Shown in pieces: positions 1 to 63,285 of a stretch of DNA of 64,000 nucleotides; position 1 is the first letter of the stretch; every line of letters begins with the position of its first letter. Location: positions 45,001-109,000 of the forward strand of contig CAJHZI010000427.1 of NCBI GenBank assembly GCA_905160935.1, read 5' to 3'. The position numbers were made by a program, and so were the translations under genes. The notes beneath the pieces were generated by a model. It ran no database searches. It was not told the DNA's origin and saw nothing but the letters and a program-made list of their open reading frames with translations. The DNA is from Enchytraeus crypticus (taxonomy: Eukaryota; Annelida; Clitellata; Enchytraeida; Enchytraeidae).

Positions 1-207
1 CAAATATATTCTAACCAACGTCAGAGAGGGCATTTGGTTGGTGAGCCCGCAGGCTCTAGAAACTGATATACAATTTTCCAAAACAAACGGAAAACTAGGG
101 GTGGGCTGATGACATGTCATGGGACAGAAAGGAGCAGAGAAGGTCTATTCGTATCCCCAACCCAAGTTAAACTGGGATTAAAGAGAAGATAATGATGATG
201 ATGACTC
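1..207 (+). mobile_element. LINE 3' end fragment, (GAT)n-tailed family
   Basis: Shares with the copy at 29697-30142 the terminal block 'GGTCTATTCGTATCCC ... TTAAACTGGGATT' followed by GATGATGATG. Only the last ~200 bp are present (5' truncation). Lies downstream of the last visible UBAP2L exon, in an intron. Confidence 0.75.
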
Positions 208-23774: not shown

Positions 23775-24030
23775 ATATGGTTACGAAACGGCTTAAAATA
23801 ACGGATATTGCTGTGAAACGACTTAAGCTAACGGATATTGCTATGAAGCGGCTTAGAACAACGGATATTGCTTTGAAGCGGCTTAAAATATCAGATATTG
23901 CAGTGAAACGGCTTAAACTAACGGATATTGCTGTGAAACAGCTAAAACTAAACGGATCGGATATTGCTATGAAGCGGCTTAAAATATCGGATATTGCTTT
24001 GAAACGACTTAAAATATCGGGTATTAATTG
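23775..24030 (+). repeat. 30-bp minisatellite just downstream of HYKK, open as KRLK-x-x-DIA repeats
   Basis: About nine units (AAACGGCTTAAAATAACGGA plus TATTGCTGTG). Unit length is mostly a multiple of three, so the plus strand reads 92 codons of KRLKITDIAV-like repeats without a stop. No start context or splice support; it lies within 70 bp of the HYKK stop and probably in its 3' UTR on the opposite strand. Confidence 0.85.
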
Positions 24031-24095
24031 AAGCCATAAAACTCATAGTGTTCAAATCGTGGGCTGACTGCGAATTAGCCTGAGCAGCTGCTTCC

Positions 24096-24580
24096 TTAAA
24101 ATAAAGTCATGTCATAAACTGCTCTCAATATCCTATCCCACCTGTGGAGCAGTTCTTGACTTGATATTTCTGCAAGAGCCCTGAGCTGTGTCCAACCGTT
24201 TTTGGCGGTTGAGAGGAGATAGACGTTGCCAGGATCCAGCGTGTAGCTGTAGTAGCCAAGGACCAGAGACTGGGCGTACCTGCCCATGATACACACCGGC
24301 AGGCAGTCGAGCTCTGACATCGAGAGCTCTCTCTTACGAAGATAGCCTGCGAGGACATGGGCTCCAACATCCATAGGATCTACTAGAGAGCTGTCTAACA
24401 TTATGTACATGATGGCTATGGCTATCTCGTATACGTAGTACGAGTTGGACATGTCGCCAAAGTCCAGGATTCCGTATACTCTATATTCCTTTAAGTCTCC
24501 GTTGTCTGCAGACTCTATATCGTTATTCGACACTGGTTCTACCAATATATTCTGCTCGTTGTAATCACCGTGTATGGCTC
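24096..24580 (-). CDS. HYKK: HYKK coding exon 5 (catalytic loop, stop codon)
   Basis: 485 bases from acceptor attccag to TAA at 24098-24096. Carries the kinase catalytic motif IHGDYNEQN and the metal-binding LDFGD, then IAIAIMYIMLDSS and the C-terminal helices. Confidence 0.92.
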
Positions 24581-44379: not shown

Positions 44380-44466
44380 CATATTAGCGAGAGATCGTTT
44401 AACATCAGAACCAAAAAATTCAGACCACTGTAAACCAGACCTCAGCCACAATGTCTTCACAGATTC
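44380..44466 (-). CDS. EIF4G: eIF4G exon 15 of window (end of MA3)
   Basis: 29 codons, [20 protein letters not shown] then DVKRSLANM, phase 0. The acceptor (tagggtgag) has a poor pyrimidine tract; donor gtaatt. This is the last eIF4G exon I can recognise. Confidence 0.82.
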
Positions 44467-47400
44467 CTCACCCTATGTTATATTAAATACATATAATCTC
44501 AAAATTATAAAACTGATCAAGAATATAGATTTAATTTGCAATAGTTAAGATAACAGAAACAAAAGTTTTCATTATTTACATAACAATTAGAAGTTGAAAC
44601 AAAAATTAATTAAATAACTTTAGCAACAATATGGACGCATATTTTCCCCTCAATTTGGGCTTTAAAACAAACTTTAATGCACAATATAAGGGTAGCATTA
44701 TAGTTACAATAACGGATAGAAAACTAACAATTATATAAACAAAAGCACGGAAGAAAACGCCTGGATCTAAATAAGTGAATGTTGGATTGAAGATTTGGTA
44801 ATAATTGAACACAGAAAGGAAAGCATACATTAGCAGATTAGCAGTTGAACACAGCGCAAACCAAACTACAAATATAAAAATTTAAGACATAACATGAAAA
44901 AAGAGATCAATTCAGATGCGATAGGCACTAGTAGGTACTATATGAAAAGCTTAATCAATTAAAAATATGGCAAAACTTAATCAATTAAAAATAAGTAATT
45001 TTTTGAAAATTTCAAATTTTCTTCATTGTAATGTAACATCATGGAGATATCTAGTTGACATCCGTGTTGTCTAATAAATGAAAACGATTAATAAATCTGT
45101 CATAACTGAATTATTTGTCCCTTTTATTGGTTAGATATATGCTGGATTGATTGAATGTCGTGATTTGCTATAAGCTTTTAACTACTTTATACGATTTGGA
45201 TATGTTCCTTTAGGACACATGTCAGTGCTTTCATGGCCTTTATGTCTTTTTTCACTTTATCTCATGTATAACTTGCGTATGATGTAACCTAAAGTGAAAT
45301 AAATATGATTCAATTCAATTCAATAAACACTAAGATTTTTACCTGGATATTCTGACAGTCGCTCAGTATGGACAGGATAAATGAGAACGACACAGCCCTG
45401 CCACTCGAGGCAGGCAGCGCAGTCTCGCAACCATTCACCAGATGTCGTAGCGACAGGATGTCGCCTACAACTAGCGGTGAAACCATTGTGGCGAGATAGT
45501 CCCACGCTAGCGGAATATCCACTAACAGGTCTGGCATGAATGTTAGTAGTTCATGTATACTGCAATCAATGAATCAATCAATCCATCAATGAATCAATCA
45601 ATGAGTCAATGAATGAATGAAAGAATGAATGAATGAATGAATGAATCAATCAATCAATCAATCAATTAAAATAAATAGTACAGGGTACATTTCAAACAAC
45701 AAGTCAGAGCCAGAAGTGTTATCATAATGCCATGACGGTACAAATCAATCAAAGCAAATAAATCACAGCGTTTCCATCCAAATGTCAAGTAGCATCGTCA
45801 ACAGCTAATAGGCACGTTAACGTCCAAGGCAACAAAGGTACCACAACATTCAAAAGTGAAACACAGAATAGCGCATACAACTTAGTAATAATAAAATTTA
45901 CCTAAATATTGAACAGACATACAGAGTATTAATTTAAATTACAGAACCATCTAGCATAACCATGTCGCAAATCTACAAGACAATTAGAAACAGCTGTACA
46001 AGCAGTAACACCAGCAGCACTAGCAGCAGCAACAACAGTAGCAGCAGCAACACCAGCAGTAGCAGCAGCAGTAAAAGCAGTAGAAATAGCAGCAGTAGCT
46101 GTAGCAGCAACAACAGTAGTAATGATAGTAGCAGTAGCAGCATCAGTAATAGTAGTAGCAGCAATACCAGTAATACCAGCAGTAGCAGCAGCAGTAGAAG
46201 CAGCAACAACAGTTGCAGCAACATCAACAGTAGCAGCAACAACAACAGCAGTAGTAATAGCAGCAGTAGTAGTAGCAGCAGCAGCAGTAAAAATAGCAGA
46301 AGTAGTAGCAGCAGCAACAGCAGCAGTAGCAGCAGCAACAACAACAGTAGCATCAGCAACAACAGCAGCAACAGCAACACCAGTACCACAGTACCCCTGC
46401 TATAGGCTCGTAAGGAAGCCCTCACCCCCTGATCACGTCCTCCACACGGAGCAGCCTGTTCTCCACCCAGCACACGAGCAGCCCTCCCGCTGACCTCCGC
46501 TCCTCCAGCTTCTTCTCCAGAGAACAGTTGAGCAGAGAGGTGACGGCTGCGGGCAGTAGAGCAGGCTTTAGGTTCAGCTCCTTCATCGACAGGCAAGCCT
46601 CCTGCGTCACAATCAGTACAGCAGCTTCTTTACACTCAGAGCACTTCCATAGGCAGTAGAAGACCTATCTTTTCCATATCTCGTTTCCATCCAGTGTCCA
46701 TGAGTTGCGTCCAGCGCCTAAAGCTTCTTTTCTTTAATTCCCTTTACTTTCGACTGATTTTCTGGATTTTGGAATTTGCACTACTTTTGGACCTTCTTCT
46801 TGCTTGCCGGCTGGATTTTGTCTCAATAGTGCTCGATGTTGTCATTGATGACTGCAGCACTCTAATTGTTGTTATTATTATTATTACACACAAAGCACGT
46901 GCCACATCAAAATAGCCAAAAGTTAATAAACAAGAAAATAATAAAATATACAGATAACACAAAAATAATAGGAGCAAATATAATTTCAAGACTACGTAAC
47001 TAAGATTTTTGTCAGCAGATGAATGTAGGTCAAATGACGATAATTTATTAAGTACTCATAGAGAGAATACAGGATCGATGATGCTGATAAACTACTGCAG
47101 CAGAAGATCAATAACTGTTTTTAGGAAAGATAGTTGCGCGTAAGACAGAAAATAGGTAGACAGCTCAATGAAAAATATATACTTCCTTCCTGTATCATTT
47201 TCTAAACAGTGATAACAGTATCAAAGTAACTGCAAGTAAGAATAATTAACTGAAGAGTTATAATCGGAGAATTCTAATTTAGTTTTCATCTATAGTTTCT
47301 ATACAATGCTCTTCTCTTTCGATCATACTGCATAGCTCATACCTTAGAATCTTTTTCGCTCTTGTACTCTTGCAGCACATAGAGAAGCCGATGCTCTAGA

Positions 47401-49525
47401 TCAGTGGGCAGGGGGGTGAAGGCGAATGGATCAGCACTGACAGAGGGAGGAGTGGGCGTGGCTCCTCGGCTCAGACTCGACTCTCTGGAGTCTGAAGCCT
47501 TTAAGCGAGCTGAAGCTCTGAGGTCAGTGAGCAGTGAGTTGGCTCTGCTCTCCTGTGAGCCACTGGCTCCGCCCACTCTCTGAGGAGAATCTCGACCACG
47601 ACTCGACTCCCTCGACCCTCTACCTGGAGTCATCAGACGAGGAGTACCGCGACCATACCTGCGTTAAACGTATAGTAGCATTCATGACAATAGTCTAATA
47701 GAATGATTTGTAGCTGCGATGAAATTACAGCCGCATTAAATGCGCGCCCATATCTTCGTTAAATGCATAGCAGCATTCCTGACAAAAGTCTAACAGCGTA
47801 ATTTGTAGTTACGATGAAATTACAGCCGTGTTAAATTCGCGCCCATACCTGAGTTAAACGCATAATATCATTCCTGACAACAGTCTAATAGCGTCACTTG
47901 TAGTTGCGCTGAAATTACAACCGTATTAAATTAATCGTTGTCATCTTCCCTTAAACCACAGTTTAACAAGGGTCGGGATACGAATAGACTTTCTCCAGCC
48001 GTGTTAAATTAATACTAAACATAAATTAATATTAAACATGAACAGTAGTGAAATTCAAGTTTAATATTAATTTAACGTGGCTGTAGTTTAGTTTATGAAA
48101 GATATTGAAAAAATAGGGGAATGACTGATGATATGGTGTGGGACAGAGAGGAGAGGAGACGTTCTATTCGCATCCTAACCCTGGCTAAATTGGGAGTCAA
48201 GGGATGCTGATGAGATGCAGTGGTAAATTGCATGCGCTCTAAAACTAAAATAAATGTAAGGATTGAAAAAGTATTTAATTTTTATTTTAAAAAACTTTTA
48301 CTTTTTAATTCTGGAGTTTTGGGAGTATTCTTCACCAACACTGACACAACATGGGCAGAAAAAAAAACAAATGGGTAGTTCAATAGAATTATCAATTTAA
48401 AATCAATTGTAAAACTAAGATCAGAGGCGCCATAGACTGGAATATGACTACACGCGTACATATGTCATGCCGTCAATCGATTCTCATCTTTCTCATCCTC
48501 TAAATTTTGTTTGCCTAAGCTGAATCGATAACTGTTCTCACTAGAGTGTTTCATTTGCTTACAATAGTTTCATGCAGTATATTTGACTGGTTAAATATAA
48601 ATATTACAACATTTATAAATAAATCACCAAAAGTCTAACTACAGTCAAACAACTGATATTACAGGCATTATTAAAATATAGATATATAATGTTTTGTTAC
48701 AGTTTTAATATTTGGTCCGACGTTTCGAGTACTACTGCGTTAGACCATACAACAGGCTGACTCAAACAACATTAAATTTTTAACAGAAAATGTGTATACC
48801 TCCAGATTTTACGTATAAGTGTTCAGACACTTGTGATTTAGATCTGAAAACACAACCAACGACGTTAATTTAATTTACGAGGCAAGCCCGTTGAGAAGTA
48901 GAATGATCAAGAAAACATCATTACCCAGATGATGAGGGTCGCTGCTCGTCGTGATGTCTTGATTGTGGAAAACTTCTGTTCTTAGACGTTGAGTATCGTC
49001 CAGCATCGCGGTCGAGAGCTGCGTATCTAGGAACCGGAACAAGAATATATGTTTATTTAAGAAAAGAAAATGTCACACAAATTGCATAAAATCGGACAAA
49101 AAGATAATGCAAAATACACACAAAAATTATAACAAATCAACAAATCAAACCATTAATCAATACAAGAACAATAGGCCATCAAAGAGAACGCTAGTTCTAT
49201 TAAGTTGAACACCTACTATCCAGAGTTAAGCTGAACAGTCATATATGCAAGAGAAAAATAAATAAAAAGAAGGAAAAAAACAATTGTTACTACTATCTAC
49301 ATATATATACGACTTTTAGAGCTCTACCATCACTCATGATCATGTCCAGCAATATCCATCCAACACGAGATAGATATATGTAACGATGAAAATTAAATGA
49401 TAAAATACAGCATAGTGCAGAAATGACCAAAATTAAGAATTCAAATAAATTTGAGAACATTAAAATTAAAAGAGCTTAATTATTACTATTAATATTACTT
49501 TATGTATTATACATTTATATATACA

Positions 49526-49589
<64 letters not shown>

Positions 49590-49899
49590 ATCATCATCAT
49601 CATCATCATCCTCCCTTGAATCCCAGAATCCCAGTTTAACTAGGGTCGTCGGGATACGAATAGACTGCCTCAAATCCTCTCTGTCCTACACCACTAGCCA
49701 ATCCCCTATTTGAGACTTTTCCATTCGTTTAAATTTTTGTAGCAATTTCTGGAGCCTAAGCGCTCACCAACCGAATGCCCTTGCTGACGTTGGTATGGAT
49801 CTTAGTGCTTTAGTCGCCTTCTACGACAAGTGCAGTCACCAGTTGGTCAATTCTTCAAACAACCCGGACACAACAGGGGGATATGTATATATTATATAT

Positions 49900-49958
<59 letters not shown>

Positions 49959-50115
49959 CTGCGTCAAAAAAAAACTGACCCCCTACAGAAATTTTTTTAT
50001 AACTTTTGTATCTGATATCTCTTTGTCATGCAAATTTTAGCAATAATACATGATCCAATTGTACATATATGCTGCAAAAGTGATGGAAATATATGCACCA
50101 AAATTCGAGTTACAG

Positions 50116-50184
<69 letters not shown>

Positions 50185-53100
50185 ACATCACTAAAGATAA
50201 ACAGATTCCTATGTAAAGCCTGCAGACCTGTTAGAGGCTGCAGCAGTGTCAGAGTCCTGAGCTCTCAGGCTGCCACCTCGACTACCAGAGCCCCAGTTCT
50301 TGGCTCCCGGTCCCAGAGTGAGGGAATTCTCGTCCAGCATTGTCGGCTTAGATATCTTCATAAACCTGACACGTTAAGCAGCAATTATTACAATTATTCG
50401 CGCAATAGAAAAGTTAACAGTGACCCATTTTGTCAAGAGATCATAATTTTTTTAATGTTCTTAAATATTCTCAACAATCCAGCTAACAAATCCATACTAT
50501 AAGTTACACTAGCTGTACTCGTGTGCAAAAATCCACACATCTAGAAAAAAGGGCACTGGATTTTAACCTGCACCTCTCAAAAATAATGCCGTTTAAAGTT
50601 AAATATATACTCGCCATAAATTTTACTGGACAAATAACGGAGCTGTAGCGAATATTTATAATTGCTAATATTCGGCAATTATAAATATGATGCAGTGATA
50701 AAATTTAAATATATACTCGCCCTAAATTTATAACTGTCAAACGACACAGCTGTAATTAGCAGAACTATTAAAGAATTTCATCAGCTAGCGAGAGTGGAAA
50801 GCGTTAGCGTTACTTCAGACAGACAGAAAGACAGAACTGGCTCATTATATTAGTTACTAACTCTCCATTATTTCTTTGCAATTGGAATAAAAAGATTACA
50901 ATTGTACAATGCACATATTGTAGATGTTTCAGTAATTATGTTTTAAGCGCGCGTTGTTACACCGCTAAACTAGTGAAACTTCACATCTTTTCAAATTATA
51001 TGAATACACAAGCAGGTACACTAACAAGAGTCTCTAGTAAAGCAGAGAATTCAAATTCAAATCCAGACGCAAGCAACAAGAAGAAAAAACCTGGAGGGGT
51101 CAATCTTTTCTCTCACATCTCTTTTAGCTGACACGGGGGTCCAGCCGTCATCGCCCCCCGCTGACCCCGGGGCTGACCTGCCCTGTGGGGGGTGGCTCCT
51201 TCCACCTGAGGTAGGATTGGGTAGACTCTTGATCAGCTGCTCCTTCTCTAGCTTCTCGTTCTCCGCCTCCTGATGGATCTGCTCGATAGTCTTGGGATTG
51301 TTGTCAGCACGACGTGGCACCCACTTGTTCTGTTCAATGTAAGAACACAAGGTTTAATCATGACGTGCATCCCCTTGTTCTGTTCAATGTAATAACACAA
51401 GGTTTAATCATGACGGGCACCCACTTGTTCTGTTCAATGTCACTACACAAGGTTTAATCATGACGCGGCACCCACTTGTTCTGTTCAATGTCACTACACC
51501 AGTTTTAATCATGACGCGGAACCCACTTGTTCTGTTCAATGTAACAACACAAGTTTTAATCATGACGGGCACCCACTTGTTCTGTTCAATGTAACAACAC
51601 AAGGTTTAATCATGACGGGCACCCACTTGTTCTGTTCCATGTAACAACACAAGGTTTAATTAAAATATGTAAATCCAAATCATAACAAATCGCAGCAAAT
51701 AACAAAACGCACCACAGATCCCATGCAGAATCAGAATATAGCATTATCATAACTAACATAAAGGTATATAGTATAATCTAGATAGTATTTATCTATTGTC
51801 AACAGACCTGCCTAAGTTCTATAACGTTCTGAAGCATGAATCTGACCCGAGAGCTTATTGTCTGCTTATCAGAGGATAATTTCCGCAGCTCACTGAAGTA
51901 GATATCCACTCCTGAAGTCTGCGCACATAGAAATAACAAATTCGAGAATGCATCGTCAACATTATAATCTTCCCTTGAAGTTTTGCTAGGGTTGGTATAC
52001 GAATAGACCTTCTCCAATCCTCTCTGCAGGTTGGGAAATTTTTTCGATCGTTTTAGAAAATTCTGTAGCCTAGATATTTCTGAGCCTAGGCACTCATCAA
52101 CCAATTGCCCTTTTTGGCGTTGGTTTGGAGCTTAGTGCTTTGTCACCTTTTACGACACGCGCAGTCTACGGTTGGTCTATTCTTCAGCAACCCGCACACA
52201 GCACGGGTAGTTCATCTCAGGACAATAAAGCAGTATCTACACTGGGCATTAGAACGCTACAAAGATTGAAAGTTCAACAGTGCCTGACAATAAAATAACA
52301 TAGTGGTCCAAAGATTTTTCCTGACATTTACTAACTGGCATTTGTCAGATGAAAGCCAGCTCCAATATACGACCGACTAGACATCATTACTTGCCAGTGG
52401 CTAGTGGCTAATTCTAAACTGCACATCAGTTCACTTTGTCAAAATATTCGATTTAACAAGCTCAAAAATTAACTTTACAGTAGAAGGTACAGCAAAACCT
52501 AAAAACACCAGTTTAGAACAATGCTTTGCTATAACTTATCCTTTAAGAAATACCTTGGTAAATGAAAACACAGATCAGTAAACTAAACTGTCTTAGTGAA
52601 CAAAAACACGAATCAGTAAACTGCCCCGGCAAACAAAAACACAGATCAGTAAACTGTCCCAGTAAACAAAAACACAGATCAGTAAACTGTCCTGGTAAAC
52701 GAAAACACAGATCAATAAACTGTCTCCACAGTTACCACCAGATGGCGATTAGAACACGACGTACGGATTACAAACCTTCTTGATATTAGTGTTAGCGTCC
52801 ACATCGAGATCCTTGCCGATGTTCGTGAGCAGACCAGTGAGACATTCCAGGCTGTCTTCATCCCGGTTCTTCAACAGCTGCCGCACACAGCTGTGCATTA
52901 TCGACTCCGTCAGCATCTTCAGTTTAAACAACTCTGCGATAAACCTGTGACACGCAGTATCAGAGGCGATATCCACAAATATCATCAAACATCTTCAGTT
53001 TAAACAACTCTGCGATAAACCTGTGACATACAGTAACAGAGACGATAGCCACAAATATCATCAAACATTTATCAACATCTTCAGGTTAAACAACTCGTGA

Positions 53101-56100
53101 GATAAATCTGTGACATACAGTATCAGAGACGATAGCCACAAATATCATCAAACATTATCAACATCTTCAGGTTAAACAACTCGTGAGATAAATCTGTGAC
53201 ATACAGTATCAGAGGCGATAGACACAAATATCATCAACATCTTCAGATTAAATAAATCTGAGAAAAATCTGTCCCATAGAATAAAATAGAAATGATCAAA
53301 AATATATCTTATATAAGGAAGGGAGTCCTGACAATTGTAATAGGTTATATTCATAGCACTACAGTATGGTCAAAAAATGAAAGTTCAAATGTTGCACATG
53401 TACATGTTTCAATGCAGTGTGCTAACTACTCACTAGCAGTACTCCACTGACCGACAGGTTAATCCCACAAACAAAACGCTTATGCTTTTGAGATATCAAT
53501 GTAGCTAACTAAGATATCGCTCCTGAGGTGATTTACAATTGCTTTCCTCAACATTTTCTCAACTCTTGCCTAGTCATCTCTTAGGACATAGACAGCATAG
53601 ACATAACTCGAGCCATAATTATATATCTCTCTCTTAGTGCACTGCCTACTGGCAGGTCCATGGTATATACCGCCTCTGTTCTTCTCTGCCTCTATCTTTC
53701 CTCTTCATGTCCACATATCAGTGGATCTTTAAATCATCTAACATTTCTCATCTCGGCCTGCCTCTGCCTCTAATTCCATTTATTCTTCCTTCTATGACCT
53801 CTTCTAGTAGACTTCCCCTCTTAGTATGTGTCCTATCCAACTCTTCTTATTATTTCTTAATGTTCTTAATTTCTATTTGTTAAGTGTCTATTTGTGCCAA
53901 CTCTCTCCAGGACTTCCTCATTTGTAATCTTTTGAGTCCGGCTAATCCTTTCCATTCTTCTCCATATCCACATTTCCAATGTCTCTAGTTTCCTGATATA
54001 TTTCTTCCTTAAGGTCCGTGTTTCACATCCATATAATAGCGTGGTCTATACCAAGGTTTTCACTATCTTTATCTTTGTGACTTTCTTTAGACTTTTTGTT
54101 AAAAGTTCTTTCCTATTTCCGAAGGCCTATATAAAAATTTAAAATATACATGTATATTTAATAATCATCATTACAATCATCTTCCCTTGAATCCCAGTTT
54201 AAATAGGTTCGGGATACTAATAGACTGTCTCAAATCCTCTCTGTCCTACATCATATCATCAGTCAATTCCCTATTTGAGACTTTTCCATTCGTTAACGTA
54301 TATATTTAATAATGTTATATAATTATATATTTGGCTTGTATAATTTTAACTTCTATTAACATACAGAGAACAACAATAATTCCTACAGCATAAGTTTCTG
54401 CAGTAGTTTCAAAGCAATATTAAACGTCCACCCGGCAGAATTATATATAGAACTATACATAGAACTATACAGACCTTATGTTACCCAGAGATCTCTTGCG
54501 AGAACTGAAGAGAGCGCTGTCAAGTTCTTCTTTCAACAACTTCTTCTGCTCCTCCTGGTTAGTAAATCACACAATTCAGTAATGATCAAATACAACTACT
54601 TACAAGTATTCCACGCTCACGGGGACAACAAATATAATAAATACGATAGATCGGCTTAAAATGGATAGCATGTTGCTTAAGACAGCCTTTGAAAACTGGT
54701 AATGAAAAAAAGCAGGATGTTTTAAAGATATATTTAAGTCAACAAGCATTATAGTGAAATGATGAACAATGTTGAGATCTATCACTTTAAATACCACATG
54801 GTTAATTGGCGCTGCAGCCTATTATGCCAACTTGCCAACATGCCAACTTGCAACACTCAAAATATTTGGAACCTCTGCATTCAAACGATCTCTTTCGCAT
54901 TAGAAAACAGAAATCCCATAGGACAATTCAAACAGGCATGGATGCATATAAGTGATAGCTTAAATGTTGATATTACAAATAATTTAATTAACTACTTAAA
55001 TTTCAATATATGATATTATACAACGAGACAATGTACAACTGACCGATGACGTCACATCAATCTCTTTCTGTCTCCTCTCTATATCAGTACCAGATGTTAT
55101 ACAACGAGATATTTAATCTAGAACACAACTGACCGATAACGTCTCGTCAATCTCTTTCTGTCTCCTCTCTATATCAGCACCAGATGTTATACAACGAGAT
55201 ATTTAATCTAGAACACAACTGACCGATAACGTCTCGTCAATCTCTTTCTGTCTCCTCTCTATATCAGTACCAGATGTTATACAACGAGATATTTAATCTA
55301 GAACACAACTGACCGATAACGTCTCGTCAATCTCTTTCTGTCTCCTCTCTATATCAGCACCAGATGTTATACAACGAGATATTTAATCTAGAACACAACT
55401 GACCGATAACGTCTCGTCAATCTCTTTCTGTCTCCTCTCTATATCAGTACCAGATGTTATACAACGAGATATTTAATCTAGAAAACAACTGACCGATGAC
55501 GTCTCGTCAATCTCCATTTGTCTCCTCTCTAGATCAGCGTCATCCTGCTTGTCCTTCTCAAACTCCTCCTGACAGCGGTTCAGCAGAAGCTTGCGAAAGG
55601 TTCTCGTCTCACCAGAACTGCCCTCAATTGGTACCTTGACCTTGACATCAATCAATCAGCCAATCAAAACAATCAATCAATCAGCAAATCAAAATCAATC
55701 AATCAGCCAATCAAAACAATCAATCAATCAGCAAATCAAAACAATCAATCAATCAGCAAATCAAAATCAATCAATCAAAACAATCAATCAATCAGCAAAT
55801 CAAAACAATCAATCAGCAAATCAAAACAATCAATCAGTCAGCAAATCAAAACAATCAATCAGTCAGCCAATCAAAACAATAAATCAAGCAGTCCATCAGC
55901 CAATCATCAAAGGTTTCAGCAACAGCTCAAGCAACTTTATCACCTCACTAGGTTACTAGATCAGCTGTCAGCTGATTGCTTCAACCACAGCCTCAATCAA
56001 TCAGTCAGCTCAGCTATATGGGCTAATCTACCTAATTCACTGACGCATACTACTTAGATAGATTTTATAAATGCTATTTTATAGCAAAATTGTATACTAA

Positions 56101-56446
56101 ATTTTAGTTATTTCATCTAGTAGTGGTTTATAAGCAATATAATAAATAGAAGTAATAAATTACGCTTTAACATCTATTTACTCATACAATAACAATGTCA
56201 GGGACGTCCTCCATCGCATGTCACTATAAATCTATTCACCCAAAACGATTCTAAAAAACATCTACGGAAGAGAAAGAATAGAGATCTTAAACGGTGCCGG
56301 TCTGGCGATCAAAAAGCAATGTGTGTAATATATTTTAGTAATAAAAATACTATAATAGTGTACTCATATGCATAATTATGTACATTATTTCCTTAGAAAA
56401 TCCACAGCATTTACAGTTATAGACAAATGCGAATGGCTATAACCAC

Positions 56447-56486
<40 letters not shown>

Positions 56487-59400
56487 GGACTCTTATTACC
56501 ACTGGAACATCGAGTACACTACTCTATTCTCTTACGCTAGAAGTTAAAGAAGTATAGATAGCACAATGTAAAGCTAAGAAATGCACAGTGTAAAGCTAAG
56601 AACGATTAATATAGAGTGAATATTGAATCAGTCCTGCTATCTTGCTACACAATTCAAGACCTATACTTAAGATTACGTACCGAAGTCATTTTCATAGCTA
56701 GTTTAGCATAGGCAGGACAAAAGTTTGGCTCGCTGATTGCCTGAAATAACAACGAATACAAAGTATAATAATAACTATACCTCTATTAGATTAATTAAGA
56801 GATTGCACTGAAGTACATGATAAATGCTTCATTAGAGACCAGTAGTGAACCTAATGCTGCATTTGCATAAGCCTACAAAGAATGCATTTATGACATCAAA
56901 TACTAGATAGAGTTTTAAGAAAAATCAACGCCACTAACTATTAATTCATTTAGGATTTTAAAGAATGCTCTGATTTTTAAAATTTTACAATAGAACGCTT
57001 AAATTTCTATAATACAATGGCTTGGAGGCATTGTCCCTAAATAAAACAGAGTTAATAAAACTGAATATGTCATGATCAAAATCATTTGAGAAACTATTTA
57101 ATACTTTTGACAATTCTCCGATAAAAACAAAGATAATTTTGACAATTCTCCGATAATGGATACAAATCAATGCTACATAGGTAGTAAGCCTTAAGGGTAA
57201 TTTCATTTCTATAGTCTGCATCAGTAACAGAAAACACAATGCTAAACACACTGTGTAGAGACACCTATCGATGAATAATAATCTAAACTAGGTCAGTTGT
57301 CTAACATGAATTTTACAGTGCATTTATTAGAAACAATGGCCATTCAAATTTTAACTTATGCCATTGCGACACTTGATATCTGACAACGTCTGAATTAAAT
57401 AGCATTGACTTTACTTTTAGTAGAGCATTATGTAAGATATTTAAGATTAGAGACTTAGTAGAGCATTATGTAAGATATTTAAGATTAGAGAAAAAAGAGA
57501 GTATTACATTAGTGTAGAGTATCAAAGAGGCTTTAATAGCGATATTAATAATACTAATAATAACGTCACAACAACTCGATTCACCCAAGCGATTTTTAAA
57601 AATATGCGAAGAGAAAGAAAGGAGACTCGAAATGATGATGGTCCGGTGATTAAAAAAACAGTCAGGCGAGATGATATAAATTTAAGGTGCACCTACTACT
57701 GAAAGTAAAAATAGTAGAATACGAGCGAAGATCAGGCGGCAGATAATTCCCAGCTTAAAAAGAAAATGAGTGTCTACCTAATACGGTGTGGGTTTTGAAC
57801 AGGTAGGCCCAGAAGAACGAAGCTTACGAGAAGATTGATATGGGATTAAGAGTTCAGAAAGGTAGAATGGTTATCCAAAGATAAGTGTTTGAAAGTTAAA
57901 AGCCCTGAACCTCAGAAAGCCAGTGAAGATTACTAAGTAGGAAACTTGAGCTAGCCTGAACCCTAGAAAATTGACAGAGAACACGTACTAGAGCATTCTG
58001 GACACGTTGCAGGCGGATGAGAGAGGAAGGCAAGCTATATGACATTGCCACTGGGTGGAGCCAGTGGTGATGTCAGTAAGATACCCTACCATGTGCATGT
58101 GCAGGGTTCAAATCCTGGGCTCGCCCGACTATGATACCGCTTTCGAGATATGAAACTGACGCTTACATCGGCTTTACAGCCTCATAACGCAGTGAGTTAT
58201 AGTAGTCAAGTTTATGCCAGATTACAGACTTACCCTTAGAGAGCCCACTACCACAGATAGATCCTTTAACATCAATATACATTTAATAAATAAAAGCGGC
58301 ACTACAAACCAGTACACACTAAACATTAACCTGACAGTCTCAGACATTAAAACAGGAACTAAGTGTTCACATCCTACAGCAGATGATCGAACCTTCTCAA
58401 AGAGAATGTTGATGATGCCAATCAATCTCGTCTCGGTGTCTATCTCCAGGGCAAGAACTTGATCAATCAGAATGTCCAACTTCTGCGGCGTCATCTTATT
58501 CAGTATACTCCTGACAGTCTTGTACAGCGCCTAGCCAGCACACAGCAGTCAATGTTCACAAGCAATTCTCTACAAGTTTAAGTAAATAAAAGATTGAAAA
58601 AATCTTCAACACGCTAAACGGGCGCTAGATAGTAAAGCTGGCAAAGCTAAGGTTAACGACAGTTTCCTCACTCAAAAGCGATGTCAGTGACGGCCGAGCC
58701 CAGGATTAAATGGCAGCAAAAATTCACCACCAACTCTCCATAAGTTTAAGTAAAAAGAAGATTGAGGAAATCTTTAACGTGCTAAACATGCGCTGTATAA
58801 TAGTAGACAAATTGAACTTCCTCCTTCCTCTATCCATAAGATCGACTATCCACAGCTGACACTGAAAAAATTGAATCTCCAGTTAGTATTTTCAAAAATT
58901 TTGATGTAGCAGAAATGAAAGAATTGCAGCAAAAGTTGATATCATTAATTAAAAGAATTATGAACATTAACAAATTAATAGAAAAAGAAAGAGCACTGTA
59001 TTTCAGAAGAATGATATTATGTAGCACCAAAGAATATCTATAAAAAAAGATGCAAGCCGGCTTCTGCTTACAATATAGCATAGAAAAATCAAATAGAAAC
59101 TAGTAGACACAGCAAAATGCTTCCATATACTGCAAAAATATATGCCAAGCATTATATCCATGTATTTTTGTTCAAATATTTGCACTAAAAGTAGTTTCCT
59201 ATGCAATTCTCTAATATTTTCTGCAGCCGCAATTCTTCACATAATAATAATAATAATAATAAATAAACATAATAGGCTAATAGAGGTTTAAATACTATTG
59301 CACTAACTAAATATTGCTACATAACTACATCACTACCTCGCTCAATAGTATTATTGCTACATCACTACCTCGCTCAATAGCATTATTGCTACATCACTAC

Positions 59401-62400
59401 CTCGCTCTTAGCCTCGTCGCTGTCCTCAGGCTCATCCTGCTTCACGCGTGATGGAGGCTTCCAAGCGTTGTCAGCCCTCTTCAGCTCCACTTCCTTGTTG
59501 ATTGAAATCACCATTCTGTTGGGGTTGAGATCAGGCTTAGAGCTGACTGCACGCAAGCCATAATTACTGGCGCCGGGGTGGGAGCCCCCTTTCATCTGGT
59601 GGGACATGGGGCGGACTGGTCCCCCGTGGGAATGCAGAAAGTTAGGAGTGAAGTAGTCGTGGAAGCTCGGTAGGGAAGAGGATTGAGACATGTGCGAGTG
59701 ATAATTTAACCCGGCAGAAGTGCGCGATCGATCTGACGCTGTGTGAGGCTAGTTAAACAAATTAAATAAACAAATTAATTAAACACATTAATTAAACAAA
59801 TTAAATAAGCACGAGACTTACCAATGACCAAAAGCGAGATTAATTAAGCAAAGTAATTTATTGTGAATTTAAAGGAATGGAAAAGTCTCAAATGGTGCTG
59901 ATGGACGAAATGCTGTAGAGACAGAGAGGATTTGAGGCAGTCTATTCGTATCCCGGCCATAGCCAAACTGGGATTCAGGGGGAGATGATGACGATTATGA
60001 ATTAATTGTGAAGCTAATTATTAAATTTATTGAACAATTGTGAGGCTAATGAATCATATTAAATAATCAAGCATAAGGGTAATCAATCAAATTATTTCAT
60101 AGAAATAGACACTAATCAATATTCAGTAATTAATTAATAATAATAAATAATAATAATATAGGTTTAACATCCGTTTCCTTATACAAGGATGATGTCAGGG
60201 ACGTCCCCCTATCAAATGTCACTAAAAATCGATTCATCCAAACGATCTGAAACAAACACGTGCTGAAGAGAAATAAAAGAGCCTAAACAGTGCCGGTCCG
60301 GTGATAAAAAAAGCAGTCAGGCAAGATGAAATAAAATCTATGGTGGGAAGAAATGTGTTTTCAACTTACAACGGAAAGTGGAAGTAGTAGAACATGAGCG
60401 AAGATCAGGAGGCAAAGAGTTCCAAACAGTCGGAGCGGAGAAAGAAAATGAACGTCTACCTAACGAAGTGAGAATATTAGGAATTTTGAGCAGTTTGGTA
60501 TCGGAAAAACGAAGCTTACGAGAAGGTTGATATTGGATTAGGAGATCAGAAAGGTAAGAAGGTTTACCAAAAAGGAGTGTTTTGAAAGTTAAAAGAGCAA
60601 TTTTATACTTACTTCTTTGAACTACAGGAAGCCAATGAAGGTTATTAAGCAAGGAACTAGAGGTGGGCTGAAGCCTCGAGGATCGACAGACAACACGTGC
60701 TAGAGTATTCTGAATGCGTTGCAAACGCATGAGAGAAGAAGAAGGTAAACCATATAGCAATGAACTGCAGTAGTCAAGTTTAGAATGAACTATTGAGTTG
60801 GCAAGAATTACGGATGAATTTCTATCAAGAGATGACCATATCTGTCTGATTGACGAATCTGAAAGAAAGATGAACGACAGACAGATGAGATATGAGATTT
60901 AAAATCAAGATTTTCATCAAACATGACACCAAAGTTTTTAGCCTAGGGAGTAGGAGTGAGAGTAAGATTTTGAAAGTAGATGGAGGAATTGGCAATTTTG
61001 GTTCTTTGCTGGGGAGTGCCGATTAAAAGATGTTCGGTTTTAGAGGGGTTGACAGAGAGACGATTACTGCAAAACCATGAATACACTTTGTCAAGAACAG
61101 ATGAAAGGTGCTGCAATTCAAGTCAGAATCTGAGCTAGAAAATGAGATGTACAGCTGAGTATCATCAGCATAGAAATGAAATTTTATTGAAGCATTGTCT
61201 AAAACATAACTGAGTGGGGTAGTGTAGAGGAAAAAAAGTAAAGGTCCAAGTACAGATCCTTGGGGCACACCACGAAGAAGAGGTAGTTAAGGGGAGCGTT
61301 CATTGTCTATAATAACAGATTGAGTGCGACCAGAAAGATAGGAGATCAGAGAGAAAGCGGAATCAGAGATACCAAAGCACGTTTTAAGTCTACTGGTAAG
61401 AATGTTATGATCGATGGTAAATCGATCGATGGATGAATGTTATATCGAAGGCAGCCGAAAGATCAAGTAGTACAAGGGCTGATACCTTTTGAGAGTTTAA
61501 GGCTAAGCAAAGGTCATTATGAATGCTGAGTAAGGCAGTTTCAGTGGAGTGAAGCTTTCGATATGCAGATTGGAAACAAGATAGAGAAGGAAAAGATTCG
61601 AGATGGCTGCATAAGCGAGTGTAGATTATTTTTTCCAAGATTTTGGAAATGAAATTTAAGTTTGAAATGGGGCGATAGCTAGAAAGATCATCTTTAGGAA
61701 GTGATTGCTTTTTAAGCAGAGGAGAAACAACAGCATTTTTAAAAGTAGATGGAAAAATTCCTTCAGAAAGTGAAAGATTAACCAGATAGGTAATTGGAGG
61801 TAGGAGGGCATCAATGCAAGATTTAAGTAGTTTGGCTGGAATGGCATTTAGCGAGCAAGATGAATCAGTAGAGCTGAGTATTAGATGACAGATTTCTTCA
61901 AGAGAAGCCGGTTTAAAATTTAATAGCAGAGGAGGATTTGGCATAGACGGATATGAAATAGTCTCGGGAGAGGGAGGAATAGAAGAACAGAGTTTGGTAA
62001 TTTTGTCATCAAAGAAATTAAGAAAATTGATGGCAAGAGTTGACGGAGAATTGGAATTTGGAAGAGACTTAGGGATTGTGCGACCAAGCAGTGAATAAGG
62101 GTTCCCCAAAGTTTTTTGGGGCAGTTTTGATTCTGCAAGATCAAGTTCTTAAGAACTCTTGGCGGAGGAGATCATATGATCAACTAACTTACGTTAGTTG
62201 ATCATATGATCATATGTCACTCAAACATTATTACGACTTGATTAATTACACGTAATTAATCAAGTATCTGGTTAAACTGGGATTTAAGGGAAGATGATGA
62301 TGATGAATTAATCAAGTATGAGGTTAATCAATTTAGTTAATCAACTGAAAGTATACGCTAATTAATAAGTGAATTATATAGAATGTCTGGCGATCAGCCA

Positions 62401-63285
62401 CCGCAAGCAGTTTAGAATTATCAATTACTTCATAGTGCTTGTAACATCACACATATCCTGGAGATTTTTAACATAAATTTTTATATATTCATATTAAGCA
62501 AGCACTAAGCTAAGTGATACAGAAAATCGTTTATTCATTATAATCTTAAGCTTTGCTAATTACAATAATTCTTTCAGGAATTTATTTTCTCTCAATAAAT
62601 ATAACTGTCTGACTAGCTATTTATCTTTTCTTCTCAATACCTTTTAGTATATTATTTTTAAAATCATTTCTGCTTGTAAGTTATATCTAGGAAAACTCTT
62701 AACATTATTCAATTTCATTCATTCGATTACCACTTGTGTCATACAAATTGTACACCGTGTACGTGACTGTGCAGTCTATAGGGTCGCTAAATCCTTATTG
62801 GTGTCCTGAATAACTGAAATAAACATTCTAAATAAAAATAAATTTAAAAAAAAACAAGTCGACTTTACTGATCATGCATTATTGGTACAGAATGAGAAAC
62901 TGTTCAACACATCGACTGCGATCAGAAATATGGAGATGAGCAGAAGAAATCCCAGTGCTAATCTGACATTATTCATGGATGAGAAAACAATCAACTGTTG
63001 CTATTTATAATTATTATTATTACCTGTCAAACATGACGCCTTCTGCTTAAAATCTTTCACAGAATTTATTTTATCATTTTCATACTCAAAAATAATAAAC
63101 AAACGTAATTCAATACTGTTAATAGCTTCGCTCTTCACGTAGAGAACTCACCTCACTGAGAACTACTTCAGGCACGTTAGCAAGGCCCCTAGGTTTCACA
63201 CTACATTCTGGTCTGCTCCTAACTGACAGCAGGAAGTCTCTGTCATACACCTTACGACCAGACGATGAAAGCTTTGCAACACTCC
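44380..63285 (-). CDS. EIF4G: Eukaryotic translation initiation factor 4G, 4E-binding site through MIF4G and MA3, fifteen exons
   Basis: Exons listed separately join in frame to 820 complete codons without a stop. In order: an eIF4E-binding motif [10 protein letters not shown] (Y-x4-L-hydrophobic) about 13 residues in; a linker ending [20 protein letters not shown] with the conserved WKP; the MIF4G/HEAT-1 domain ([88 protein letters not shown]), which binds eIF4A and RNA; a Ser/Arg/Gly-rich hinge ([18 protein letters not shown]); and the MA3/HEAT-2 domain, which ends in [18 protein letters not shown]. The protein is the scaffold linking eIF4E, eIF4A, eIF3 and PABP in cap-dependent initiation (family knowledge). 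The N-terminal, PABP-binding part lies beyond the right edge. The C-terminal W2 domain of animal eIF4G1/3 was not found below 44380. Several exon junctions carry tandem repeats (see repeats and findings). Introns hold L2, SINE and other LINE copies. Confidence 0.95.
45343..45559 (-). CDS. EIF4G: eIF4G exon 14 of window (MA3)
   Basis: 217 bases, [20 protein letters not shown] to ILSDCQNIQ. Matches the MA3 region with DIP..W.YLA. Acceptor attgcag, donor gtaaaa. Confidence 0.9.
45562..45668. repeat. (AATC)n / (AATG)n microsatellite
   Basis: Begins three bases from the acceptor of eIF4G exon 14 (45559) and runs AATCAATCAATCC, then GAATGAAT, then CAATCAATC. Confidence 0.95.
45990..46392. repeat. 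(AGC/AGT/AAC)n trinucleotide array, about 400 bp
   Basis: RNY triplets, mostly AGC, AGT and AAC, unbroken in register over about 130 triplets, starting 35 bp past the donor of eIF4G exon 13. Gives long poly-Ser/Asn, poly-Ala/Val and poly-Leu frames that are not genes. Confidence 0.97.
46426..46601 (-). CDS. EIF4G: eIF4G exon 13 of window (MA3)
   Basis: 176 bases, [20 protein letters not shown] to RVEDVIRG, the MA3 'EA...(L/V)KEL' core. Acceptor gacgcag, donor gtgagg. About 35 bp past the donor begins a 400-bp AGC/AGT repeat. Confidence 0.9.
46735..46892 (+). repeat. Dispersed repeat with (TTA)n tail
   Basis: Close match to 940-1090: TGATTTTCTGGATTTT, ATTTTGTCTCAATAGTGCTC, GCACTCTAATTGTTG and (TTA)n. 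eIF4G intron. Confidence 0.75.
47343..47658 (-). CDS. EIF4G: eIF4G exon 12 of window (hinge to MA3)
   Basis: 316 bases, [20 protein letters not shown] through a Ser/Arg/Pro stretch to [19 protein letters not shown], the first MA3 helix. Acceptor acgcag, donor gtatga. The acceptor lies in a 95-bp tandem repeat. Confidence 0.85.
47645..47932. repeat. 95-bp tandem repeat spanning eIF4G exon 12 acceptor, three copies
   Basis: CCATACCTGCGTTAAACG-type blocks with the CATA(C/T)(C/T)T core at 47654, 47749 and 47844, period exactly 95. The unit includes CGCG(A/C)CCATAC, meaning the first exon bases and the acceptor. Confidence 0.92.
47936..48000 (-). mobile_element. (GAT)n-tailed LINE 3' fragment
   Basis: Minus-strand copy of the last ~60 bp of the family, inserted at the end of the 95-bp array; inverted relative to the copy at 48100. 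Confidence 0.7.
48100..48214 (+). mobile_element. (GAT)n-tailed LINE 3' fragment
   Basis: GGGGAATGACTGATGATATG then GTGTGGGACAGAG... and TTCTATTCGCATCC, ending GATGCTGATGAG. Confidence 0.75.
48925..49026 (-). CDS. EIF4G: eIF4G exon 11 of window (hinge)
   Basis: 102 bases, [20 protein letters not shown] to QRPSSS. Completes SNRYAAL, matching SNR(F/Y)(S/A)AL of other eIF4Gs. Acceptor ttcctag, donor gtaatg. Confidence 0.85.
49536..49590. repeat. (TA)n microsatellite joined to (CAT)n tail
   Basis: TA run next to CATCATCATCATCATCATC, the reverse-strand tail of the LINE fragment that follows. Confidence 0.95.
49588..49886 (-). mobile_element. (GAT)n-tailed LINE 3' fragment, ~300 bp
   Basis: Longer 3' UTR-containing copy: GTCGGGATACGAATAGACTG, then CGAATGCCCTTGCTGACGTT and CTTCTACGACAAGTGCAGTC, shared with 51960-52215. 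Confidence 0.8.
49888..50184. repeat. Two (TA)n blocks around a 160-bp unique segment
   Basis: TA runs at 49888-49955 and 50120-50184. The segment between opens CAGACTGCGTCAAAAAAAAA at its TA junction, resembling one end of a Tc1/mariner element inserted in a TA array. Confidence 0.7.
50228..50365 (-). CDS. EIF4G: eIF4G exon 10 of window (hinge)
   Basis: 138 bases, [20 protein letters not shown] then [11 protein letters not shown] to AAASN. The acceptor gtgtcag was chosen because it gives the conserved 'S-R-x-x-K-I-(S/T)-K-P' join with exon 9. Confidence 0.85.
51091..51329 (-). CDS. EIF4G: eIF4G exon 9 of window
   Basis: 239 bases, [20 protein letters not shown] to [11 protein letters not shown] plus two bases. 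Includes DDGWTPV of the hinge. The donor gtttttt is poor, but phase and homology support it. The acceptor and first codons are repeated about six more times upstream (50-bp unit). Confidence 0.88.
51310..51660. repeat. 50-bp tandem repeat spanning eIF4G exon 9 acceptor, seven copies
   Basis: CTTGTTCTGTT(C)(A/C)ATGT recurs at 51324, 51374, 51424, 51475, 51526, 51576 and 51626. The first copy is the real junction. Every copy repeats the acceptor (ATTGAACAG) and the first codons encoding NKWVP or close variants. Confidence 0.95.
51808..51918 (-). CDS. EIF4G: eIF4G exon 8 of window (MIF4G)
   Basis: 37 codons, [20 protein letters not shown] to [15 protein letters not shown], phase 0. Acceptor gtgcgcag, donor gtctgt. 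Confidence 0.92.
51960..52215 (-). mobile_element. (GAT)n-tailed LINE 3' fragment
   Basis: GGTTGGTATACGAATAGACC and CACTCATCAACCAATTGCCC parallel 49588-49886. Lies ~45 bp upstream of the exon 8 acceptor. Confidence 0.78.
52555..52738. repeat. ~34-bp minisatellite, five to six units, downstream of eIF4G exon 7 donor
   Basis: Unit AACACAGATCAGTAAACTGT then CCCAGTAAACAAA. Lies about 40 bp into the intron after the donor at 52775. Confidence 0.92.
52776..52944 (-). CDS. EIF4G: eIF4G exon 7 of window (MIF4G core)
   Basis: 169 bases, [20 protein letters not shown] to [10 protein letters not shown]. Acceptor gtcacag, donor gtttgt. The first 30 bases plus acceptor are repeated upstream in degenerate tandem copies. 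Confidence 0.93.
52915..53290. repeat. 75-86-bp tandem repeat spanning eIF4G exon 7 acceptor, five copies
   Basis: CATCTTCAG(T/G/A)TTAAA recurs at 52915 (real exon), 52990, 53076, 53162 and 53238. Each carries degenerate copies of the first ~30 exon bases (..[10 protein letters not shown]..) and the GTCACAG-type acceptor. Confidence 0.95.
53630..54128 (-). mobile_element. LINE C-terminal fragment, family D (longest copy)
   Basis: The minus strand decodes as [40 protein letters not shown] and WRRMERI, an RTE-type C-terminus, with breaks. Shares end block ACTGGCAGGTCCATGGTATA with the other copies. Intron between exons 6 and 7 of eIF4G. Confidence 0.8.
54165..54300 (-). mobile_element. (GAT)n-tailed LINE 3' fragment
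   Basis: CATCTTCCCTTGAATCCCAG, GGTTCGGGATACTAATAGAC and GTCAATTCCCTATTTGAGAC. Confidence 0.78.
54475..54554 (-). CDS. EIF4G: eIF4G exon 6 of window (MIF4G)
   Basis: 80 bases, [20 protein letters not shown] then RSLGNI, ending two bases into the Arg that precedes FIAELFK. Acceptor aaccag, donor gtctgt. Confidence 0.9.
55020..55560. repeat. 90-bp tandem repeat (180-bp higher-order) spanning eIF4G exon 5 donor, six copies
   Basis: GTC(T/A)C(G)TCAATCTC blocks at 55051, 55141, 55231, 55321, 55411 and 55501, period exactly 90. Copies alternate CAGTACCAG / CAGCACCAG, giving a 180-bp dimer unit. The 55501 copy is the real exon end. Each unit repeats about 35 exon bases plus the gtcagt donor. Confidence 0.96.
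55494..55640 (-). CDS. EIF4G: eIF4G exon 5 of window (MIF4G)
   Basis: 49 codons, [27 protein letters not shown], to EIDETSS. The donor gtcagt was preferred over gtcatc six bases earlier because only it restores phase 0 with exon 6. Its 3' end plus donor is repeated in a 90-bp array, and a second array abuts its acceptor. Confidence 0.9.
55641..55910. repeat. ~25-bp minisatellite abutting eIF4G exon 5 acceptor
   Basis: Unit TCAATCAATCAGCAAATCAA then AACAA, about ten variants. Starts within ten bases of the acceptor at 55641-55642. Confidence 0.93.
56165..56345 (-). mobile_element. L2-like 3' UTR fragment
   Basis: Plus-strand GTCAGGGACGTCCTCCATCG, ATTCACCCAAAACGATTC and AACGGTGCCGGTCTGGCGAT match 60190-60320. 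Confidence 0.8.
56448..56484. repeat. (GA)n microsatellite
   Basis: GA run 17-18 units. Confidence 0.95.
56681..56740 (-). CDS. EIF4G: eIF4G exon 4 of window (small MIF4G exon)
   Basis: 20 codons, [20 protein letters not shown], acceptor atttcag, donor gtacgt, phase 0. AISEPNF is near-invariant in eIF4G. Confidence 0.93.
57570..58215 (-). pseudogene. L2-like LINE fragment interrupted by a SINE
   Basis: Matches the 3' UTR and C-terminal coding part of the element at 60200-60780, with many indels. The SINE at 58050-58182 sits inside it; the match resumes with TAGTAGTCAAGTTTATG (compare GCAGTAGTCAAGTTTAGA at 60768). Confidence 0.82.
58050..58182 (+). mobile_element. tRNA-derived SINE, copy 5, nested in L2
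   Basis: GGGTGGAGCCAGTGGTGATG, B box GGTTCAAATCC at about 58106, then GCTTTCGAGATATGAAACTG. Younger than the L2 copy it interrupts. Confidence 0.88.
58393..58530 (-). CDS. EIF4G: eIF4G exon 3 of window (MIF4G start)
   Basis: 46 codons, [20 protein letters not shown] to INILFEK, phase 0. The donor gttcga is weak beyond GT. Closely matches the first MIF4G helices. Confidence 0.92.
58629..58716 (-). mobile_element. tRNA-derived SINE, copy 6 (3' part, reverse)
   Basis: Reverse complement reads TTTAATCCTGGGCTCGGCCG, CACTGACATCGCTTTTGAG and GAGGAAACTGTCGTTAACCT; the 5' tRNA half is missing. Confidence 0.82.
59325..59408. repeat. 32-bp tandem repeat spanning eIF4G exon 2 donor, three copies
   Basis: CTACATCACTACCTCGCTC at 59325, 59357 and 59389 (period 32). 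The last copy crosses the real exon end at 59401, so each copy repeats the last seven exon bases plus the gtagtg donor. Confidence 0.95.
59401..59748 (-). CDS. EIF4G: eIF4G exon 2 of window
   Basis: 116 codons, [11 protein letters not shown] to DEAKSE, phase 0. Contains [20 protein letters not shown] followed by WKPPSR, equivalent to the conserved block just before MIF4G. The exon reads upstream of the internal Met in [10 protein letters not shown] to the acceptor actag. The donor end is triplicated in a 32-bp repeat. Confidence 0.9.
59865..60000 (+). mobile_element. (GAT)n-tailed LINE 3' fragment
   Basis: AATGGAAAAGTCTCAAATGG, GAGGCAGTCTATTCGTATCC and ACTGGGATTCAGGGGGAGAT. Confidence 0.8.
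60130..62145 (-). pseudogene. L2-like LINE, 5'-truncated, with RT and C-terminal domain
   Basis: Minus strand, three open pieces. At 62109-61405: [40 protein letters not shown] and LLDLSAAFD (motif A). After a frameshift: [20 protein letters not shown] and [13 protein letters not shown] (motif C, the YADD box) at 61268-61140. At 60760-60338: [36 protein letters not shown] and [20 protein letters not shown], ending in [12 protein letters not shown] and a stop. These are diagnostic of the L2 group of non-LTR retrotransposons. The 3' UTR runs to (TAA)n at about 60130-60160. No endonuclease domain is present. It sits in the eIF4G intron between exons 1 and 2 in the same orientation. Confidence 0.9.
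62268..62312 (+). mobile_element. (GAT)n-tailed LINE 3' fragment, minimal
   Basis: Only the last ~40 bp (GGTTAAACTGGGATTTAAGG then GAAGATGATGATGATGAA), an extreme 5' truncation. Confidence 0.7.
62313..63151. other. eIF4G intron sequence, nothing recognised
   Basis: AT-rich intron DNA between the LINE tail and exon 1 of the window; no ORF or repeat of note. Confidence 0.4.
63152..63285 (-). CDS. EIF4G: eIF4G exon 1 of window (eIF4E-binding motif)
   Basis: 134 bases; the first two complete a codon from an exon beyond the window. Tyr of the YDRDFLL motif is encoded at 63247-63245. Followed by [20 protein letters not shown] and donor GAG|gtgagt. Confidence 0.9.

Follow-up and report, generated by a model that had tools for sequence, protein, structure and literature searches.

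Junction-crossing minisatellites in an eIF4G gene and other sampled genes of the annelid Enchytraeus crypticus

The eIF4G gene and its arrays

The window analysed here, a stretch of 64,000 nucleotides of the Enchytraeus crypticus genome, contains a minus-strand eIF4G gene. Sixteen exons with 32 junctions were placed within positions 44380..63285 (all coordinates are those of the window unless a contig is named):

63285-63152, 59748-59401, 58530-58393, 56740-56681, minus strand: eIF4G exons 1-4
55640-55494, 54554-54475, 52944-52776, 51918-51808, minus strand: eIF4G exons 5-8
51329-51091, 50365-50228, 49026-48925, 48843-48800, minus strand: eIF4G exons 9-12
47658-47343, 46601-46426, 45559-45343, 44472-44380, minus strand: eIF4G exons 13-16

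Pfam MIF4G matches the joined exons 1-10 (E 1.1e-46), and the PDB eIF4G1 chain 8huj_B (phmmer, E 5.2e-76) covers exon 3 to the start of exon 9. The latter alignment is gapless at the joins of exons 5 and 6, 6 and 7, and 8 and 9, and has a five-residue gap near the join of exons 7 and 8. The gapless joins give homology backing to the splice sites at the exon 5 donor and at the exon 7 and exon 9 acceptors. Exons 1, 2 and 10-16, and with them the exon 2 donor and the exon 13 acceptor, are based on open frames and splice consensus. Within intron 1, the segment 60150-62250 resembles a LINE-type reverse transcriptase remnant, as judged by eye. A long imperfect AGC-rich tract lies at 46001-46376, about 50 bp past the exon 14 donor.

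According to Tandem Repeats Finder (TRF), five of the 32 eIF4G junctions are crossed by minisatellites. Two further arrays lie close to junctions of the same gene and cross none:

59325..59407, minus strand: exon 2 donor array, 32 bp x 2.6; junction 59401/59400, GAG|GTAGTG; 7 bp of exon
55035..55538, minus strand: exon 5 donor array, 90 bp x 5.6; junction 55494/55493, TCG|GTCAGT; 44 bp of exon
52910..53237, minus strand: exon 7 acceptor array, units of 76-87 bp, TRF rows of 76 and 86 bp at 52914-53237; junction 52945/52944, CACAG|GTTTATC; 35 bp of exon
51311..51660, minus strand: exon 9 acceptor array, 50 bp x 6.9; junction 51330/51329, AACAG|AACAAG; 19 bp of exon
47648..47932, minus strand: exon 13 acceptor array, 95 bp x 3.0; junction 47659/47658, CGCAG|GTATGG; 11 bp of exon
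55647..55886, minus strand: neighbour array of the exon 5 acceptor, 25 bp unit; ends 6 bp short of the acceptor
52556..52725, minus strand: intron 7 array, 33 bp x 4.3; about 50 bp into the intron

The first-pass annotation had described five arrays, each with its own unit length, at five splice junctions of this gene, and TRF recovers every one of them in its place. Its exon 12 is exon 13 here because of the small exon placed at 48843-48800. The five crossing arrays are mutually unrelated. Each crosses a single junction and then runs into ordinary intron, and in exons 5, 7 and 9 the protein homology with 8huj_B passes through the exon-proximal copy. Since the array units hold both exon and intron sequence, the founding duplication itself must have spanned the junction. 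Two of the five arrays (exons 7 and 13) lie on AG|GT acceptors.

The copies that lie in the intron, hereafter decoys, are not equally related to the exon copy. In the exon 5 array, decoys 1-4 are identical across the aligned window around the splice site, and further upstream GTACTG and GTGCTG alternate among the inner decoys; a GTCATC variant is common to the exon copy and the last copy and looks older. The exon 7 array repeats the exon start exactly in its nearest decoy, the exon 9 array keeps AACAG in 7 of 7 copies, and one decoy of the exon 13 array has AAG. Many multi-copy arrays in the wider sample described below have decoys with common changes that are absent from the exon copy. This is the usual picture of arrays in which inner copies homogenise and edge copies are left out.

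Two arrays near other genes of the window, both of them minus-strand genes, belong to different settings. A 39 bp x 7.5 array at 4421-4788 (TRF 4499-4788; by eye to about 4437) is situated a short way upstream of the probable acceptor GGCAG|GAGATCAGC and does not cross it. At 23785-24580, a 30/126-bp array is found about 70 bp downstream of a stop codon, with the likely last exon at about 24096-24580; this is a gene end and not a splice site.

Array starts around exon edges in the genome

The genome search covered 524,188,772 bases in 802 contigs, and exons were anchored by Pfam matches to kinesin (74 of 128 matches used), myosin (49 of 81), kinase (31 of 137) and MIF4G (8 of 9, the ninth being the eIF4G window). 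Outside eIF4G, splice sites are predicted sites located by homology-anchored exons, open frame and consensus. The choice of regions followed the strength of the match, the density of exons and the presence of short open frames, and arrays were not a criterion; the myosin and kinase regions were picked before any of their arrays were known, while for some kinesin regions one locus in the gene had already been inspected. Two intronless kinesins (L009, L010) were excluded. The final set outside eIF4G comprises 162 exons, 318 junctions, 60 contigs and 238,729 bases. A crossing array was required to have a unit of at least 20 bp, a TRF score of at least 100 and an intron overlap reaching a cut-off of 15 bp.

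Minisatellites cross 38 of these 318 junctions (about 12%, or one in eight), where 4.5 crossings are expected under even seeding as calculated from the deep-intron start density and the unit lengths. Acceptors (21/159) and donors (17/159) are both affected. The suspicion that the geometry of the five eIF4G arrays goes beyond chance is thus borne out in other genes, and the junction-crossing pattern is genome-wide, judged from the sampled genes. The listed crossing arrays number 42 (31 and 6 from other genes and 5 from eIF4G, the last eight kinase loci being left out of this list); their units measure 20-142 bp and differ in sequence and length from locus to locus. In two related kinesin genes, L053 (contig C617) and L052 (C405), an array of 41-bp units that includes 11 bp of exon occupies the same acceptor before the last motor-domain match, with 18.7 copies in the former and 3.8 in the latter. 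As the units are similar and the acceptor is the same, this array may be older than the duplication of the gene.

The density of array starts peaks at the exon edge. It amounts to 1.89 per kb at -40..-20, 2.20 at -20..0 and 2.04 at 0..20 bp from the edge, then falls to 0.63 at 20-100 bp (also 0.63 at 20-50 bp) and to 0.28-0.34 beyond 100 bp. The zone -40..+20 exceeds deep intron (100-1000 bp) by a factor of 6.45 (95% contig bootstrap 4.76-8.85) and the 20-100 bp zone by 3.28 (bootstrap 1.90-6.29). The Poisson P of 2e-22 for the crossings ignores clustering, which the contig bootstrap takes into account. Removing C617 leaves 37 of 308 junctions crossed and a ratio of 6.35. In a set of 256 junctions, raw homology edges used in place of the called splice sites give a ratio of 5.9, and three alternative TRF cut-offs give 4.6-7.1.

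The excess is present in the kinesin, myosin and kinase sets each. Starts in -40..20, counted over 302 junctions, number 24 in 8,640 bp for kinesin, 11 in 5,760 bp for myosin, 3 in 2,760 bp for kinase and 0 in 960 bp for MIF4G; beyond 100 bp the corresponding densities are 0.38, 0.33, 0.05 and 0.22 per kb. The MIF4G set, with 16 junctions, has one start in -60..-40.

Coverage has to be read differently from start density. Arrays cover the same fraction at junctions (0.139) and in deep intron (0.137), with a ratio of 1.03 (0.73-1.47). The first-pass annotation had regarded arrays no commoner at junctions than elsewhere in introns as grounds for giving up its reading; coverage is indeed equal, but the start density is 6.5 times higher at junctions. 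Coverage drops to 0.02 at 60-80 bp inside exons. Exons admit arrays for a short distance only. Under even seeding, coverage should therefore be low at junctions and rise over an array length into the intron, so that equal coverage implies an excess of array starts at the junction. Coverage was abandoned as a test statistic because arrays barely enter exons, which makes its null the wrong one, and start density was used instead. The apparent coverage enrichment in a first sample of 70 edges was probably due to other exons among the deep positions, and coverage became equal once introns were cut at the next known exon.

These numbers bear on the view that arrays are seeded evenly in a repeat-rich genome and that five of them in eIF4G reflect luck combined with a high background. 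The background is substantial, with 6.9% of the window taken up by arrays at a density of 0.30 per kb, and the equal coverage at junctions and in deep intron would agree with such a view. However, the crossings exceed their expected number many times over, and junction coverage matches that of deep intron solely on account of the crowding of starts at the junction. We consider even seeding very unlikely.

A further explanation invokes sequence age: transposon insertion and deletion would erase arrays deep in introns and leave the survivors beside exons. Repeats make up 39% of the E. crypticus genome according to its published description (PMC8460440), and the start density at 20-100 bp is about double that found deeper in the intron. 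Intron DNA turnover can thus raise the near zone somewhat. As the sole cause, it is opposed by the unmasked 3.3-fold excess (1.9-6.3) over the 20-100 bp zone and by the sharpness of the peak: density drops about threefold from 0-20 to 20-50 bp, though array bodies extend to about the same depth in the intron. In addition, copy identity is the same in near arrays (88.2%, 44 arrays) and deep ones (87.2%, 60 arrays; P 0.38). The latter result also gives no support to a longer life of junction arrays, and the excess reads as a higher birth rate. Sequence age therefore appears an unlikely explanation, although it is better placed than even seeding.

Base composition was rejected as a cause of the peak. 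Exons have a GC content of 48.5% and the rest 34.1%, the published figure for the genome being 35.41% (PMC8460440), but arrays outside exons are not more frequent where GC content is high. The median copy number is lower in near arrays (3.4) than in deep arrays (5.45), which the model proposed below does not predict. Strongly coding-like flanks (score of 10 or higher) accompany arrays more than 100 bp from known exons in 8 of 57 windows, compared with a share of 5.0% among 3,520 random windows; this difference is confined to the upper tail, and taken as a whole the coding scores next to non-exon arrays do not differ from random ones (medians 3.8 vs 3.7, P 0.16). If the background still contains unrecognised exons, the start-density excess would be underestimated.

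The decoys and the exon-proximal splice site

The first-pass annotation pictured rows of decoy splice sites beside the real ones. Such rows exist in the sequence, as GT or AG is retained in 104 of 111 aligned decoys, but they decay at about the neutral rate. The nearest decoy was compared with the exon copy in 38 of the 42 arrays, one decoy per array; both donors of contig C513 (one doubtful junction), one short unit and one unalignable copy were left out. Mismatches amount to 6/156 in the splice core, 80/851 in other intron positions and 76/812 in the exon. The splice core thus differs less than the rest (P 0.0095), as must be the case where change is open to the decoy copy alone. With one constrained and one neutral lineage, half the intron rate, or about 7.3/156, would be anticipated, and the 6/156 seen makes the decoys look neutral. 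Unit lengths show no bias to multiples of three (5 of 31 near-junction units). Neutral decay and this lack of bias suggest that the decoys are unused, and as far as the DNA sequence goes they look like neutral copies.

An alternative would be selection for duplicated splice sites, with extra copies that aid recognition and are fixed more often. It could draw on the complete splice site held in the units, on the high retention of GT and AG among decoys and on the lower splice-core variation within decoys, where P ranges from 0.012 to 0.033 over three filters with the C513 acceptor included. An earlier claim of selection on decoys, based on P 0.0009 for a conserved splice core, came without the C513 arrays and with an 80% filter, and is withdrawn. 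The neutral decay of the nearest decoys and the unit lengths unbiased to multiples of three speak against such selection. Neither do arrays sit at weak sites: the notion that they compensate for these gains no support, with donor scores of 7.75 with an array and 6.56 without (P 0.10) and acceptor scores of 7.46 and 7.85 (P 0.85). Selection for duplicates is in our view rather improbable.

The constraint appears to act on the site next to the exon. Among acceptor units, none of 19 has less than 15 bp of intron against 5.3 expected under random breakpoints (P 0.0012), a cut-off which is the same as the overlap used to call crossings and which was set after the unit list was known (smallest intron part 18 bp). 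Among donor units, none of 16 has less than 6 bp of intron against 1.9 expected (P 0.12). The shortage of acceptor units with a short intron part fits selection for a complete exon-proximal splice site. Of the two interpretations offered in the first-pass annotation, the tolerance of arrays only where one complete exon-proximal site remains is supported by this shortage; a mechanism that copies junction DNA is still a conjecture.

Its description of arrays extending only into the intron needs a similar qualification. It is correct for the five eIF4G arrays, but partly definitional as the used copy marks the exon edge; while 35 of the 42 crossing arrays have less than one unit in the exon, the other seven, none of them in eIF4G, enter the predicted exon by one unit or more. 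Some junctions may therefore be misplaced, or some arrays may be partly coding. A special case is locus L049 (C440:2791400-2795300, acceptor), where a 56 bp x 5.1 array with a 98% match consists of copies without the acceptor: in its unit, exon sequence of about 25 bp is fused to intron lying some 12 nt upstream. With decoys such as these, in which the splice site is missing, harmlessness may not hold in every case.

Origin of the arrays and comparison with known systems

We propose that these arrays are probably mirage-type minisatellites, which arise by a junction-spanning head-to-tail duplication followed by expansion on the intron side, on top of an excess at exon edges. In a first step, a tandem duplication across the junction would leave one complete site adjacent to the exon. 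The mRNA can then stay unchanged, which would make the duplication nearly neutral, whereas duplications that strip the exon-proximal site of its context would be removed. In a second step, slippage or unequal exchange would multiply the intronic copies, which would homogenise mutually and decay as neutral DNA. The third element is that exon-edge DNA would yield, or fix, tandem duplications several times more often than deep intron DNA.

The similar share of donors and acceptors argues against one particular splicing step. We favour, over the splicing reaction, some feature of the exonic DNA or of the passage from exon to intron, related to chromatin, transcription or replication. A broader and more tentative idea, to which we lend somewhat less than even weight, is that exon edges are hot spots of tandem duplication through a mutational process (exonic chromatin, transcription or the exon-intron transition) that acts independently in annelids and lancelets and supplies spare splice sites for possible new introns or exons. 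The passage from spare splice sites to new introns has been put forward as a route of intron gain (PMC3087553).

False duplication during assembly can be given next to no credence. The assembly is a hybrid of short and long reads (PMC8460440), in which such repeats are difficult; a false duplication would yield identical copies, however, and nearest copies differ by about 9%, with 38 junctions affected outside eIF4G.

The arrays could also be relics of intron birth by tandem genomic duplication, as in the AGGT model. This model has been reported for genes of other species, such as potato RdRp and ATP2A1 (PMC4974935), where the duplicated segment likewise bears splice signals, and two of the five eIF4G arrays lie on AG|GT acceptors. 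In those reported cases, the new intron forms between the copies. The eIF4G arrays instead copy an existing junction into its own intron. Each of them crosses a single junction before giving way to ordinary intron, and no new intron is seen. We therefore hold a descent from intron birth to be highly improbable. Arrays of dual-specific AGGT splice sites in UBC (PMC10809524) are alike in that each unit has an AG|GT, as in the same two eIF4G arrays. As described there, UBC consists of coding monomers that are spliced in variable number, whereas the eIF4G copies are intronic and most units are not multiples of three. Intronic tandem arrays of an annelid are known from an earthworm metallothionein gene (PMC12783039). 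These have a mean unit of about 180 bp, and the available portion of that report mentions exon 4 duplications absent from the transcript but not the spanning of junctions.

The closest counterparts are the mirages of lancelets, known from Adh3, the globins BflGb6 and BflGb9, PGBD5 and troponin C (PMC3087553, PMC3902484). Both systems consist of minisatellite-like tandem duplications of exon-intron boundaries at donors and acceptors, with unit lengths that vary by gene, many AG or GT copies and concerted evolution of inner copies (PMC3087553, PMC3902484); the globin mirages are described with the same pattern of homogenised inner and excluded edge copies (PMC3087553). Like mirages, the annelid arrays span the exon-intron boundary, occur at both 5' and 3' exon boundaries and have locus-specific units. 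The hosts of the described mirages are cephalochordates and the host here is an annelid, which concerns where mirages were described rather than their structure. On account of the mirages, a lancelet origin of the DNA was considered and rejected on mitochondrial evidence: COX1 of the mitochondrial contig gives a sensible reading under code 5, and the gene order nad3, nad2, cox1, cox2, atp8, cox3, judged by eye from translations, is that of annelids; for E. crypticus, the Lumbricus mitochondrial gene order has been published (PMC8460440). Mirages are also polymorphic in copy number or somatically unstable, whereas the annelid arrays come from one assembly. RT-PCR suggested normal splicing across lancelet mirages, as far as these reports describe it; the annelid arrays are known from DNA alone.

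Lancelet mirages have been described gene by gene in cephalochordates and appear in the literature seen here as a curiosity of a few genes. In the annelid, about one junction in eight of the sample is concerned and the excess over intron has been tested. Two questions thereby become testable: why exon edges duplicate, and how the spliceosome picks one among near-identical sites. On a practical side, gene prediction and variant calling at exon edges can be led astray by decoys in genomes of this kind. Among the literature matches listed, there is no report of junction arrays outside lancelets, of their rate or of a tested bias. With regard to these matches, the kind of array is already known as mirages, and the new elements are a second phylum, a junction rate of about 12%, the excess in start density, the filter for complete sites and the neutral decay of decoys.
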